From Letharia columbiana (Eukaryota > Ascomycota > Lecanoromycetes > Lecanorales > Parmeliaceae), in the NCBI RefSeq assembly GCF_014066305.1, contig NW_023501105.1:209033-273032 (forward strand): a stretch of 64,000 nt of DNA, given 5' to 3'. The translations under genes and the position numbers were made by a program. Positions 15,274-45,152 of the stretch are shown here, piece after piece; positions within the stretch are counted from its first letter, which is position 1; every line of letters starts with the position of its first letter. Below the pieces are notes generated by a model. It was given only the letters and a program-made list of their open reading frames with translations, was not told where the DNA came from and made no database searches.

Positions 15274-16983
15274 GTGCCTACAACCCCAAACTTAAGAGCA
15301 AACGATTGTGGGAAACCCACGTCTTCCTACTTTGATATAGGCCGCAGTCTCTCCGTCTATCATAACTGCATTGAGCCGGTGTCCGCTAGTCGCCACCGTG
15401 CCCTCTCTGTCGCCGTCCTCCCTCAAGGAATGTTCCCTGTAAGCGCAACGTTACCATCAGGGAGGTCCACTGATGTCAAGAAAGGTGTGCATTTCGGAAA
15501 CGAGTATGTCATCCATAGTGCTCGGATATCAAATTCCCACGGGCTCACTCAAGGCCCATCCAATGGCTCGGGACAAGGGACAAGTGACTGCGACGAACCC
15601 TCTGCGGAACCCTCACTAGCAACCATCGATGACGATGATCCCTGGGATAGAAAGACCTTATTGAGCCTAGATGGGGGCGGGGTAAGGGGATACAGTTCGC
15701 TTTTGATACTGCAAAGGCTCATGAAAGAGATTGGAAAGCTTGAGATGGAAAGTGATTCTGGAGCAATATCGAGCGCATACTCTCCTTTGGTGGATTGTCT
15801 GCCAGACGTACCTCTCGCAGCGTCACCCAATGGAACAAGACCTGCACTGGAGTACCTCCCGTGCCATTATTTCGATTATGTTGGGGGGGCGAGTACTGGT
15901 GGATTGCTTGCAATCATGCTGGGCAGACTGCGAATGAGCGTGGACGAAGCGATAATGGAGTATAAAGAGCTCTCTGCGAATGTTTTCGAGAAGCCATCTT
16001 CTCGACTGAAGAGGTTTCTGACGAAGTATGACAGCACGGTAAGGAAGGAGAAACTCAAGGGTCAATTCGACGCCCTGAAGTCCACAAGACCTAGCCCCCA
16101 AGAGGAAAGCAATCAGTTCAAATCAGACCGAGACCGATGCAGAACGATAGTGTGCTCCATCAAGAGCAGCGAAAACAACAATTTCCAGACACCCTTCCTA
16201 TTCCGTTCATACGACCGCAAAATGTCATATAGTACACCGTTCGATAGAAACCCGGGCGATCCAAATACGTTCGCCATCTGGGAAGTCGCGCGAGCGACTT
16301 CAGCCGCTCCTTCCTATTTCAAGTCCGTACGCTTGTTTCAGGCACGATACTATGATGCCGCAGTAAATCTAAACAATCCGAGCTGGGAAGTACTCAACGA
16401 GGTCAATCTGCTTGCGGACAAGTCTCAGGATCCCATTGATCTTCTGTTGAGCATTGGTGGCGGAAACGCGAAAGCAAACAATCCCAAAGTCAAATTTGGC
16501 AACGATACCCTGCTGCAAGACCTAACCGACATCTCTGATGTCGTGCACAAAAAGGTCGAGTACGAGAGAGAACGACAGCTGTTTGATTATTATCGTTTCG
16601 ATGTGAAGGAAGGCCTTCAGGAAGTCCACATGAACGAGTGGAAGCCCAAGCCGAGCGGCTCAATCACGCTGAAGCGGATTCAAGAGGCGACTAGTAAATA
16701 CCTAGAACACAAGAAAGTCAGCTATCGCATCCAAGAATGCGCGAAAAGACTGGTCGAGAAACGGGCGCAAAGAGCACAGACAATGCGGTGGGAGCGCTTT
16801 GCAACAGGTATAAGGTACAAGTGCCCACTGGACTACTGTCCCATGTCCAAGACTCATCGTTTCAACACACGTAACGACTTGATGGACCATCTACGAATGC
16901 AGCATGACCAGGCTCCTCCAGACGCAGATCACTACCGGCTTGTACAAAGTTTGCTTGATCGAGGAAGAACTAATAGTGATTGA
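15274..16983 (+). CDS. Patatin-like phospholipase with C-terminal C2H2 finger
   Basis: A 569-residue, intron-free frame. The patatin domain (about residues 127-400) has the oxyanion loop DGGGVRG (133-139), the nucleophile elbow GASTGG with Ser207, and the catalytic Asp361 in YYDAAVNLNNP, where most patatins read DGG or DGA. This gives a complete Ser-Asp dyad, so an active acyl hydrolase is likely. The domain ends at LLLSIGGG. A short helical linker (EKRAQRAQTMRWERFATG) leads to a C2H2-like finger with C517, C522, H539 and H544. The pairing of patatin with a terminal finger recurs in the gene at 42861-45152, a diverged paralog. Fungal patatin domains often occur in NLR-like immune receptors; here there is no NB-ARC or repeat sensor, only the finger. 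The true start could be a later Met (for example residue 53). The substrate is unknown. Confidence 0.85.
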   Translation: MPTTPNLRANDCGKPTSSYFDIGRSLSVYHNCIEPVSASRHRALSVAVLPQGMFPVSATLPSGRSTDVKKGVHFGNEYVIHSARISNSHGLTQGPSNGSGQGTSDCDEPSAEPSLATIDDDDPWDRKTLLSLDGGGVRGYSSLLILQRLMKEIGKLEMESDSGAISSAYSPLVDCLPDVPLAASPNGTRPALEYLPCHYFDYVGGASTGGLLAIMLGRLRMSVDEAIMEYKELSANVFEKPSSRLKRFLTKYDSTVRKEKLKGQFDALKSTRPSPQEESNQFKSDRDRCRTIVCSIKSSENNNFQTPFLFRSYDRKMSYSTPFDRNPGDPNTFAIWEVARATSAAPSYFKSVRLFQARYYDAAVNLNNPSWEVLNEVNLLADKSQDPIDLLLSIGGGNAKANNPKVKFGNDTLLQDLTDISDVVHKKVEYERERQLFDYYRFDVKEGLQEVHMNEWKPKPSGSITLKRIQEATSKYLEHKKVSYRIQECAKRLVEKRAQRAQTMRWERFATGIRYKCPLDYCPMSKTHRFNTRNDLMDHLRMQHDQAPPDADHYRLVQSLLDRGRTNSD

Positions 16984-39120: not shown

Positions 39121-40022
39121 ATGTGCAATTCATGTGGTAGCGCGAGTGGTCACCCCAATTTCACTGTAAGGCTTAAATCAATGTGGTATACCTCATTGGA
39201 CTAACATCAGATTCAAGTATTCATCAGATCCTCCCAGTTATCAACATCAACAGCAAACCACCAGTGGTTACCAATATCCACATGGGAACCAAAACCTCAG
39301 GCCTCCTCCACTCAACACTAGCTATTCATCCAGCGGCTACTCTATGAACCGTACCTCCTCTCACGGCTCAAGCGACTCTGGCTATGGTACGAAAACCCCT
39401 TCAGTGGCTAGCCCAAGACCACAACAGAGCTATCCAGTCCAGAGCTACCCAGTCCAGAGCTATCCAGTCCAGAGTTACCCAGTCATAAGCCATGTTCCCA
39501 GTCGCCAGCTAAGCCAACAGAGTACGAGCTATTCCCATGACAATCAGCGGAGTCCTGGTATTGAGGTTGTTCATACTGGTCCTGTATCCTCTTCAAGGCA
39601 CAAGAAGGAGCGCAGGCTTAGGTAAGATATTGCTAGTTTCGTTTGTCTATCCGACACGAATTATTATCCTCCTCACCCCACATCTCTCGCAAAACCCTGC
39701 AGTCTTCTTATTCGCTAACGTCCCATTCAGCACTCCTTCCCCATCCTCGCCTTCCGAATATCCCTGTCTACATCCCAGTTGCGGCCACATCAGCTCGCGC
39801 GCTCACGACCTCAAACGACACATGACAGTGCACTTCCCTCCTCCCCCGGACGAACTACTCGATTGCAAATATGAATGGTGCGGACGCACAGGTGCACACG
39901 GCTTCAAGAGAGAAGATCACCGCAAGGAGCACTACCGGAAGGTCCATATGAAGGAGAGTGAGTACCCAAAGACGGGCAAAGGAGGAAGGTCAGGAAGGTC
40001 GAGCGGGAAGTCTAAGCCGTGA
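39121..40022 (+). CDS. Small C2H2 zinc-finger protein
   Basis: Three exons, 39121-39165, 39218-39621 and 39731-40022, join in phase to 246 residues. The N-terminal half is Ser/Gln/Tyr-rich and disordered, and contains a perfect four-fold repeat of QSYPV. The C-terminal part holds two finger-like units: YPCLHPSCGHISSRAHDLKR followed by HMTVH, and LDCKYEWCGRTGAHGFKRED followed by HRKEHYRKVH. It ends in a basic Gly/Ser/Lys tail. The fingers suggest DNA binding, and the disordered Gln-rich part suggests a transcription factor. No regulon or ortholog name can be given. The start at 39121 (MCNSCGSASG) is chosen because it is the only nearby ATG that splices in phase, with the second exon read from 39218. 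Confidence 0.72.
39425..39484. repeat. Four tandem 15-bp units encoding QSYPV
   Basis: CAGAGCTATCCAGTC occurs four times head to tail inside the C2H2 gene with only silent differences (TAT/TAC, AGC/AGT). Confidence 0.9.
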
Positions 40023-42860: not shown

Positions 42861-45152
42861 CTATCCTCCAGCCCGTATCCAATCCTCCACCAACGACCCC
42901 TCCACCGCCTTATTCGCCAAGTGCCTCAAATCCTGCTCCCTCTTCCTTTTCGCCGCCGCGACACGCTCTTTCAAATCCTTCATCCTGGCTCCCGTGTCCA
43001 AAATCTCACCGCAGTCAATCTCCGTGTCCACCTTCCCCTCCCTCGTCCGACCCATCATCTCATACTCTTTCCTCGTGGCCGGGTCGTAGTACGCGTGCCT
43101 CGCACCGTGCGCCATCAACATATGGGTCCAGAACCCGAGACGGTCGGCGAACCGCTCGCCCCATGCTTCGCACCCGGGTTCGGGACACCGGTAGACGACG
43201 CCCAGGGCCCAGCGCTCCCACTGCAAGGTCCGGGCCCGAAGCCTTCGCCCGTCGACCAGGGCTGCGGCAAAGTTGTGGAGGTTGTCCGCCGTGACTTGGT
43301 TTCGGAGGTAGAGGTTGGTTGATGCTTCGATTCGGCCAAAGGTTCGATGGTCTGGACTTTCGGGTTCCCTTCCGTTCGCACCGATGTCTGGAAGGTCGGT
43401 GCCGGATACGTCGAGTCGACAGTAGTGGGCGGGGTTGAGGTACCGGGACGAGGTCAGTTGTTCTTCGTGGACCCGTTGGATTTGAGTGCTCATCTGATGT
43501 TGCAATCTATCGGCTCTGGGGTCGACAGGCTGATTGATCGAACCGCCGATGCTCAGTAGATGGATACCGTCTTTTCCAGAGAAGTCATGATTGGGTAATG
43601 AGTATATATCTTCAAGCATTGTGCGAGATATCTCCTTTACCAACGTGCGAGAAATCGTATCTCGGATCGTGCGAGATACCCGGTCTAGCATCCTGCAAGA
43701 TACCTCTTTTTGCACCATGCCAGATATCTCTTCCAGCACCGTGCGAGATATCTCCTTTACCAACGTGGGAGACACCCCTTTTCGCATCACGCGATATACC
43801 TCTTTTTGCACCATGCCGAATATCTCTTCTAGCAGCGTGTGAGAAACCTCTTCCCGGACTGTGCGAGATCCCTCGTCTAGTATCGTGGGAGACACCCCTT
43901 TTCGCGTCATGCGGAATACCTCTTCTTGAACCATGCCAGAGATCTTTTCTAGCAACGTGCGAGAAATTTCTTTTCGTACCGTGCCAGATAGCTCTTCTAG
44001 CAAGGTGTGAGATATTTCTTTTCGTACCGTGCCAGATACCATAGCTAGCACAGTGCGACTTGGGTTGTTGTAAAAGTGCTTGGCATTGCAGTATGATTCA
44101 CGAGACCGTTCTGCATCTACACATTGCACAAGAATATCATTGACAAATCTCGGAGGGCTATGATTGGCGTAAGATCGAAAAGGTTGCAGTTTGGCACCAC
44201 AGCCACAGACGATTGTACGACATCTGTTAGGGTCTGACTGGAGATGCACCTGATCCTCATTGGGACTTGGGAAATTTGGGACCAGCTTCATTGCCGGGGG
44301 ATTCGACCGTCGTGGCCCCTTGTGAATGCTTAGGAAGACAGACTTTCGCAATCGATGTTTTGGCAAAGGTGATACGGGCTGTTGCTTGACGACCGTAGCA
44401 TACATGTCTCTGTATCTCTCCATTGCTTCACGGACACTCATCCTGTACCTGCCCAACATCATAGCGATCACACCTCCGGTACCTGTACCGGCTATGTAAT
44501 CGAAGTAATGACAAGGCCAATATTCAGACTTCGGCATGGCATTAGGGGTTGGGGCGGCGCAAATCTCATCGTCTAGACGTCCAAGAACCGACGAAAAGAT
44601 GCTGGAAGTTGCCTTCGGGTTGCGTGCTCGCTCAATCTTTCCAACTTCTTCCATGAGTGCCTGCAGTATGACGAGAGAGCTGTATCCTCGGATCCAGCCG
44701 CCGTCGATGCTAAGGACGAACTTCTCGATGCTGAGGACGGACTTCATGGCCGATGGGTCATCGTCCGTATCGGTCAGATCATTGGCGTGCGGGAAAGAAC
44801 TTGGCAAAGCTCTGTCGTCTGGGGTACTCCATTGTGTAGGTTTTTGTGGAAGCACTTTCCTATCCGAGTGAACCGCCTTCTGATCTTCCATACCACTCCT
44901 GGCGTATCGGCTACTGATGCCGATGTAGGAAGCTAGGCGAATGTTAATGATGAGATCTGGAGAAGCTGTTGAGAGTAGATGCTTGCGGCCAGCCGCTGAT
45001 CGAGGTTGCTTGGGGAGCTTGGGCCGTAGGTTGACGAGTCCTCCAAATAAGGGTCGGACCTGTAGATTCGAGCGTTGTGTGTAGCCAGAGGCCGTTTGCA
45101 CTGGTGCAACAGGAGCTGAGAAGTCGCAGCGACTACGGACTGTTCCCAGCAC
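42861..45152 (-). CDS. Patatin-like pseudoenzyme with octad-repeat insertion and C2H2 finger
   Basis: A 763-residue, intron-free frame, a diverged paralog of the protein at 15274-16983. Aligned blocks: DGGWIRGYSSLVILQALM against DGGGVRGYSSLLILQRLM, WPCHYFDYIAGTGTGG against LPCHYFDYVGGASTGG, DPNRCRTIVC against DRDRCRTIVC, and LLSIGGS against LLSIGGG. The catalytic Ser is Gly224, the oxyanion glycine is Trp153, and the catalytic Asp before NNP (362-364) is absent, so no lipase activity is expected. Directly after NNP the protein carries 19 consecutive eight-residue repeats (365-516). The C-terminal part has TLQWERWALGVVYRCP and a finger with C656, C661, H677 and H682. The true start may be Met88 (MEDQKAVHSD); the first 87 residues look like upstream sequence. 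It may act as a scaffold or decoy; that is inference. Confidence 0.82.
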   Translation of the reverse strand: MLGTVRSRCDFSAPVAPVQTASGYTQRSNLQVRPLFGGLVNLRPKLPKQPRSAAGRKHLLSTASPDLIINIRLASYIGISSRYARSGMEDQKAVHSDRKVLPQKPTQWSTPDDRALPSSFPHANDLTDTDDDPSAMKSVLSIEKFVLSIDGGWIRGYSSLVILQALMEEVGKIERARNPKATSSIFSSVLGRLDDEICAAPTPNAMPKSEYWPCHYFDYIAGTGTGGVIAMMLGRYRMSVREAMERYRDMYATVVKQQPVSPLPKHRLRKSVFLSIHKGPRRSNPPAMKLVPNFPSPNEDQVHLQSDPNRCRTIVCGCGAKLQPFRSYANHSPPRFVNDILVQCVDAERSRESYCNAKHFYNNPSRTVLAMVSGTVRKEISHTLLEELSGTVRKEISRTLLEKISGMVQEEVFRMTRKGVSPTILDEGSRTVREEVSHTLLEEIFGMVQKEVYRVMRKGVSPTLVKEISRTVLEEISGMVQKEVSCRMLDRVSRTIRDTISRTLVKEISRTMLEDIYSLPNHDFSGKDGIHLLSIGGSINQPVDPRADRLQHQMSTQIQRVHEEQLTSSRYLNPAHYCRLDVSGTDLPDIGANGREPESPDHRTFGRIEASTNLYLRNQVTADNLHNFAAALVDGRRLRARTLQWERWALGVVYRCPEPGCEAWGERFADRLGFWTHMLMAHGARHAYYDPATRKEYEMMGRTREGKVDTEIDCGEILDTGARMKDLKERVAAAKRKREQDLRHLANKAVEGSLVEDWIRAGG
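43605..44060 (-). repeat. Coding minisatellite: 19 units of 24 bp (8 residues)
   Basis: The 456 bp encode residues 365-516 of the patatin-like pseudoenzyme as 19 octads with no gap. Consensus is S-x-T-V/L-x-K/E-E-I/V; examples are SRTVLAMV, SGTVRKEI, SHTLLEEL, SRTLLEKI, SGMVQKEV, SPTLVKEI and SRTMLEDI. Some higher-order blocks recur, such as SHTLLEEI-FGMVQKEV-YRVMRKGV-SPTLVKEI. The first octad occupies the place of SWEVLNEV in the intact paralog, right after NNP. On the plus strand the units appear as GTGCGAGATATCTC-like words. Confidence 0.92.

Follow-up and report, generated by a model that had tools for sequence, protein, structure and literature searches.

An in-frame octad array in a catalytically dead patatin-like protein of Letharia columbiana

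The gene and its octad array

The 64,000-nucleotide stretch of the Letharia columbiana genome analysed here (contig NW_023501105.1, positions 209,033 to 273,032; hereafter, the window) encodes a patatin-like protein, P0001, in which the conserved NNP motif is followed by a tandem array of eight-residue units, or octads (Table 1). Its closest relative, P0002, carries a similar array, and both proteins belong to a clade of lichen fungi, the other members of which are P0003–P0035. Sequence comparison within this clade directly supports the view that the octad adjoining NNP was amplified and that whole octads were inserted after this motif.

The initial annotation had described 19 gap-free octads of 24 bp within a patatin-like open reading frame (ORF), starting with SRTVLAMV directly after NNP and retaining hydrophobic residues at octad positions 4 and 8, and all of this was recovered. 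Parsing of the array gave 19 contiguous 24-nt units with no gaps or stop codons, and their translation placed SRTVLAMV next to NNP and SRTMLEDI at the other end; position 4 was occupied by V, L, I or M and position 8 by I, V or L, in 18 of the 19 units in each case. The residue numbers previously assigned to the array (365–516) are correct if counted from the mechanical ORF start at 45152 but not from the MEDQK start used in Table 1. That annotation included neither the five-octad period (120 bp, 40 residues) nor the pair of RKGVSP turns described below, and it did not record that catalytic residues have been lost.

Tandem Repeats Finder detected the array independently, with a period of 24 (16.5 copies, score 109) and, more strongly, with a period of 120 (score 378); the 120-nt reference copy repeats every 24 nt along the array. 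The best 64-residue window contained 22 identities at lag 8, which exceeds the maximum of 14 (mean 8.1) seen in 500 residue shuffles, so the array is beyond chance. At lag 40, the best such window contained 39 identities, and DNA similarity was highest between units five apart (mean 0.73). Given these patterns, the array probably grew by single octads as well as by five-octad blocks. As is typical of coding minisatellites, the unit is a multiple of 3 bp, repeated in tandem and in frame, and the copy number differs between P0001 (19) and P0002 (20). A search of the L. columbiana assembly (52.2 Mb) for the array returned no match besides the array itself.

The relatives suggest that translation starts at MEDQK (44891), as 26 of the 35 clade rows have Met in this column and 23 of them have it as the first residue (alignment A2). 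By eye, the open frame upstream (44892–45152, minus strand) is similar to the N-terminal extensions seen in P0012 and P0035; it may belong to a longer protein or be a leader that has been conserved. Compared with the Pfam patatin model PF01734, the ORF at 42861–45152 yields an E-value of 6.4e-05 and 23.7 bits, below the curated cut-off of 27.7. The C2H2-like tail (C-x4-C...H-x4-H) is present in 26 of the 35 rows; among the nine that lack it, P0012 and P0031, for example, stop before the motif is complete.

Table 1. Features of the octad-bearing gene and its comparator, in window coordinates
Feature	Positions	Strand	Remarks
Patatin-like pseudoenzyme coding sequence	42861..44891	-	676 aa starting MEDQK; open frame runs on upstream to 45152
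Oxyanion-hole loop DGGWIRG	44685..44705	-	P0002 reads DGGGIRG
Degenerate nucleophile motif GTGTGG	44472..44489	-	Ser of GxSxG replaced by Gly
YCNAKHF	44073..44093	-	Asn in place of the dyad Asp, in P0002 as well
Conserved NNP	44061..44069	-	Residues 275-277, immediately before the array
Octad array	43605..44060	-	19 in-frame 24-bp units, residues 278-429 of 676; 120-bp (5-octad) higher-order period
Unit 1, SRTVLAMV	44037..44060	-	Ancestral octad after NNP
First RKGVSPT turn	43884..43904	-	Octads 7/8 (residues 330-336); both AlphaFold2 models break the helix here
Second RKGVSPT turn	43764..43784	-	Octads 12/13 (residues 370-376); both AlphaFold2 models break the helix here
Right flank YSLPNHDF	43581..43604	-	Aligns with SSLxDHxL-like sequence of unexpanded relatives
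C-terminal C-x4-C...H-x4-H zinc-finger-like motif	43107..43187	-	Retained
Comparator paralogue	15274..16983	+	GASTGG and YYDAAVNLNNPSWEVLNEV intact

Loss of catalytic residues and origin of the array

Active patatin-like phospholipases are defined by a GxSxG nucleophile and by a catalytic Asp in a DG[AG]-like motif that precedes NNP. The nucleophile position is occupied by Gly in all 35 clade rows (G137, invariant in the clade alignment) and by Ser in each of the 11 outgroup rows that the alignment included. Beyond the clade set, 15 further proteins of the same kind were found, 13 of which have Gly, whereas no such motif could be located in the other two. The position of the dyad Asp varies elsewhere in the clade and reads YCNA in P0001 and P0002, as opposed to YYDA in the 15.3-kb paralogue. 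For the glycine-rich oxyanion loop, DGGGxRG, P0001 reads DGGWIRG and P0002 DGGGIRG. The Gly at the nucleophile position and the Asn in place of the dyad Asp do not fit an active patatin-like phospholipase and, judged by its sequence, the host protein is a pseudoenzyme from a catalytically dead patatin clade. Thus, the repeat does lie within a patatin-like domain, as initially annotated, but the folded enzyme domain envisaged there belongs to a dead clade.

Compared with patatin-like phospholipases (PF01734; patatin-17, PDB 1oxw/4pkb), P0001 differs at both catalytic positions and in having 152 octad residues from NNP on. It also fails the cut-off of the CBASS_lipase model (20.4 vs 200 bits), which sets it apart from CapV and CapE (PDB 8zr9, 9iom), the patatins of the cyclic oligonucleotide-based antiphage signalling system (CBASS). 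By contrast, it shares with P0003–P0035 the G-x-G-[TS]-G motif, the SRTVL sequence and, in most members, the C2H2-like tail. A tree of 44 rows built without the array supported the dead clade (100/99), the pair P0001/P0002 (100/100) and a separate group of P0007, P0034 and P0035 (99/97). The named clade members, Alectoria sarmentosa, Cornicularia normoerica and Usnea florida, all belong to Parmeliaceae. Outside the clade, the nucleophile Ser is also replaced by Gly in P0071, P0093 and L005, a patatin-like frame with GTGTGG on contig C51 of the L. columbiana genome, and is otherwise changed in P0063 and P0084, so the nucleophile was probably lost more than once.

Members of the clade other than P0001 and P0002 have a single SRTVLxEV-like octad at the site of the array. 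If measurement begins six residues ahead of NPS and ends at the G of LLS[IVL]G, the stretch comprises 36 residues in 22 of these 33 proteins, 41–42 in five and more in six (P0007, P0008, P0024, P0028, P0034 and P0035). In P0001 and P0002, the same stretch comprises 180 and 188 residues, that is, 36 + 18 × 8 and 36 + 19 × 8. SRTVL follows NP in 30 of the 33 members, 27 of which were counted by script; the script had anchored the other three (P0025, P0027 and P0030) at an earlier NPS and these, which read SRTVLAEV in the alignment, were counted by reading. On the other side of the array, YSLPNHDFSG aligns with the SSLxDHxLSG-like sequence of the unexpanded members. It is because the relatives keep a single octad next to NNP, and because P0001 and P0002 exceed the commonest length by a whole number of octads, that we attribute the array to amplification of this octad, in agreement with the growth from the NNP helix that had been proposed at the outset.

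The array was found in only two of the 94 fetched homologues, P0001 and P0002. When the repeat region by itself served as the query, the same two proteins were returned and no other carriers, and a further 23 proteins from a profile-based search brought no additional array. The searches score only candidates of limited length that share exact words with the query, and each full-length search covered the ∼8,000 candidates richest in shared words, so that rarer carriers could be missed. P0007, P0034 and P0035 contain at most about two to four octad-like copies, which are weak (3–4 of 8 identities). The same fixed 19 repeats in other fungi, which the initial annotation had named as grounds for abandoning its proposal, did not appear among the homologues searched: P0002 has 20 octads and no array was seen in the other 92. 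On this sample, an old, fixed 19-repeat domain common to lichen patatins is extremely improbable.

Helix geometry and predicted structure

The hydrophobic moment of the array (152 residues) reaches 0.534 at 90°, or 4.0 residues per turn, and is only 0.014 at 100°; taken per helix, it peaks at 90–93°. With octads whose amphipathicity follows 4.0 residues per turn, a single straight helix would be unable to keep a hydrophobic face. A coiled-coil rod, either heptad or hendecad, requires a hydrophobic period of 3.5–3.7 residues, which does not fit the peak at 4.0.

Two AlphaFold2 runs, one with the full protein and one with the array alone, gave models of low to moderate confidence. In both of them, the array consists of long helices interrupted at the two RKGVSP turns, an arrangement that appears more likely than the extended rod suggested by the initial annotation. 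In the predicted structure, the patatin alpha/beta core is retained and the array extends outwards from this core in some three long helices, hinged at the RKGVSP turns. The 40-residue period is within the range of ARM/HEAT/TPR-like solenoids, whose helix-turn-helix units comprise ∼34–42 residues, but there are only two regular turns. Sequence matches in the PDB to designed repeat proteins were weak (best E 0.014).

Selection and possible roles

Comparison of the units with each other gave a synonymous difference (pS) of 0.339, a non-synonymous difference (pN) of 0.356 and a ratio (omega) of 1.07, with a bootstrap range of 0.66–1.90. Under column permutation, the mean omega was 0.85 and 82% of the permutations did not exceed the observed value; zero stops were seen in 22% of the permuted arrays, and 32% reached the observed hydrophobicity at positions 4 and 8. 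The three codon positions are equally variable (0.38/0.33/0.34). P0001 and P0002 differ by one octad insertion or deletion, by 5 of the 152 residues compared in the array and by 26 of the 524 residues outside it, and the probability that stops are absent by chance at this divergence is about 0.2. Units of 24 bp, moreover, keep the frame at any copy number. The earlier statement that the repeat looks selected to stay coding is therefore not upheld by these statistics.

The expectation of zero stops in 22% of the null arrays would also fit an untranslated array, be it an intron or part of a decayed pseudogene, as would the Trp in the oxyanion loop of P0001 where P0002 has Gly. However, P0002, which is 94% identical, also has the array in frame, and the 676-codon frame ends in a C-terminus that can be aligned with the relatives. 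No GTRWGT splice donor was detected on the coding strand within 43450–44250, only two weaker GTANGN matches inside the array, and splicing-out looks unlikely. Altogether, we regard an untranslated array as improbable.

The explanation that we favour, and consider quite probable as a whole, is that an octad of a dead patatin was amplified in frame to 19–20 copies, the core being kept, and that the product would be a helical arm with RKGVSP hinges, which may act as a binding surface. Comparison with the relatives indicates that the amplification would have proceeded partly as five-octad blocks, with slippage or unequal exchange as the putative DNA mechanism. The core would hold its fold while the array protrudes as about three hinged helices, and the most likely role of the array would be to provide a pseudoenzyme scaffold, which also has a C2H2-like tail, with a helical arm or a surface for binding. 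Several results weigh against this explanation. The unit-to-unit omega of 1.07 shows no sign of constraint, and the stop-free arrays of P0001 and P0002 are compatible with neutrality. The array has pLDDT (predicted local distance difference test) values of 49–77 per 10-residue block in the full model; modelled alone, it has a mean of 61.5 and a predicted template modelling score (pTM) of 0.36. The full model has a third helix break, at residues 397–401, without a counterpart in the array-alone model, and Foldseek found no match in the PDB at E ≤ 0.001. Finally, the array site tolerates insertion, as six clade members have other, longer inserts there.

We read the array as a lineage-specific coding minisatellite that would form a helical arm on a dead patatin; the arm may serve as a binding surface or may merely be tolerated. 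In the latter case, to which we would give somewhat less than an even chance, the minisatellite grew under relaxed constraint in the gene of a dead enzyme and the arm is functionless, its amphipathicity inherited from unit 1. This would account for an omega of about 1, for the equal variability of codon positions, for hydrophobicity at positions 4 and 8 that is not clearly above the permuted nulls and for unrelated expansions elsewhere in the clade (an acidic repeat in P0032 and P0033, a repeat in P0024, a duplicated helix in P0007, P0034 and P0035, and the other inserts at the same site). On the other hand, the order and sequence of the array are about as conserved between P0001 and P0002 as the rest of the protein, and the frames remain open over 676 and 684 residues, respectively. 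Persi, Wolf and Koonin (2016, PMC5120217) also describe relaxed horizontal evolution combined with vertical conservation as general among protein repeats. The present array resembles other coding minisatellites and intragenic tandem repeats in its near-neutral horizontal divergence and vertical conservation and differs from them in having arisen from a helix within a catalytic-fold domain.

A pseudo-patatin adaptor whose array is a selected binding arm, with a helical surface for a protein, a membrane or a nucleic acid, is a plausible alternative, likewise short of even odds. The helices with RKGVSP turns predicted in both AlphaFold2 runs, the C2H2-like tail in most clade rows and the array order kept between the two carriers are consistent with such an arm, even though neither the within-array nor the P0001/P0002 statistics give a positive sign of selection. 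The patatin-like domain of the NOD-like receptor (NLR) PLP-1 is essential for fungal allorecognition cell death (PMC10197012), a precedent that makes an inactive family member acting as a regulator conceivable by analogy. A functionless, tolerated expansion appears about as likely as a binding arm.

A bolder and rather doubtful proposal is that the array represents the recent birth of a helical domain from two helix turns of a dead enzyme. Octad amplification, five-octad consolidation and fixation of the RKGVSP turns would have led to three helices that can fold as a module and keep strictly to a 4.0-residue period, most close relatives being in the before state. It is seldom possible to see how new folded repeat domains begin, but in this case related lichens show the single-copy and expanded states, the unit that was added and its exact site. 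The rebuilding would have taken place in a known fold whose catalytic residues had already been lost, and this system allows a direct test of whether a fold becomes free to be rebuilt in a pseudoenzyme.

Other repeats were seen in the same gene and clade. A small tandem duplication (VLSIEKF/VLSIDGG) at the strand of the oxyanion loop (44697–44738, minus strand) is confined to P0001 and P0002 among the 35 clade rows. Directly after the DGGGIRG loop, P0007, P0034 and P0035 have an extra segment that resembles by eye the next helix and seems to be another case of helix duplication within this fold. A TDTDDxxTDVDD-like tandem repeat lies near the N-terminus of P0032 and P0033, and P0024 has three copies of a DHALQDIDxNE-type repeat ahead of its C-terminal part. 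Elsewhere in the window, positions 39425–39484 hold a short tandem array of four copies of a 15-bp unit.
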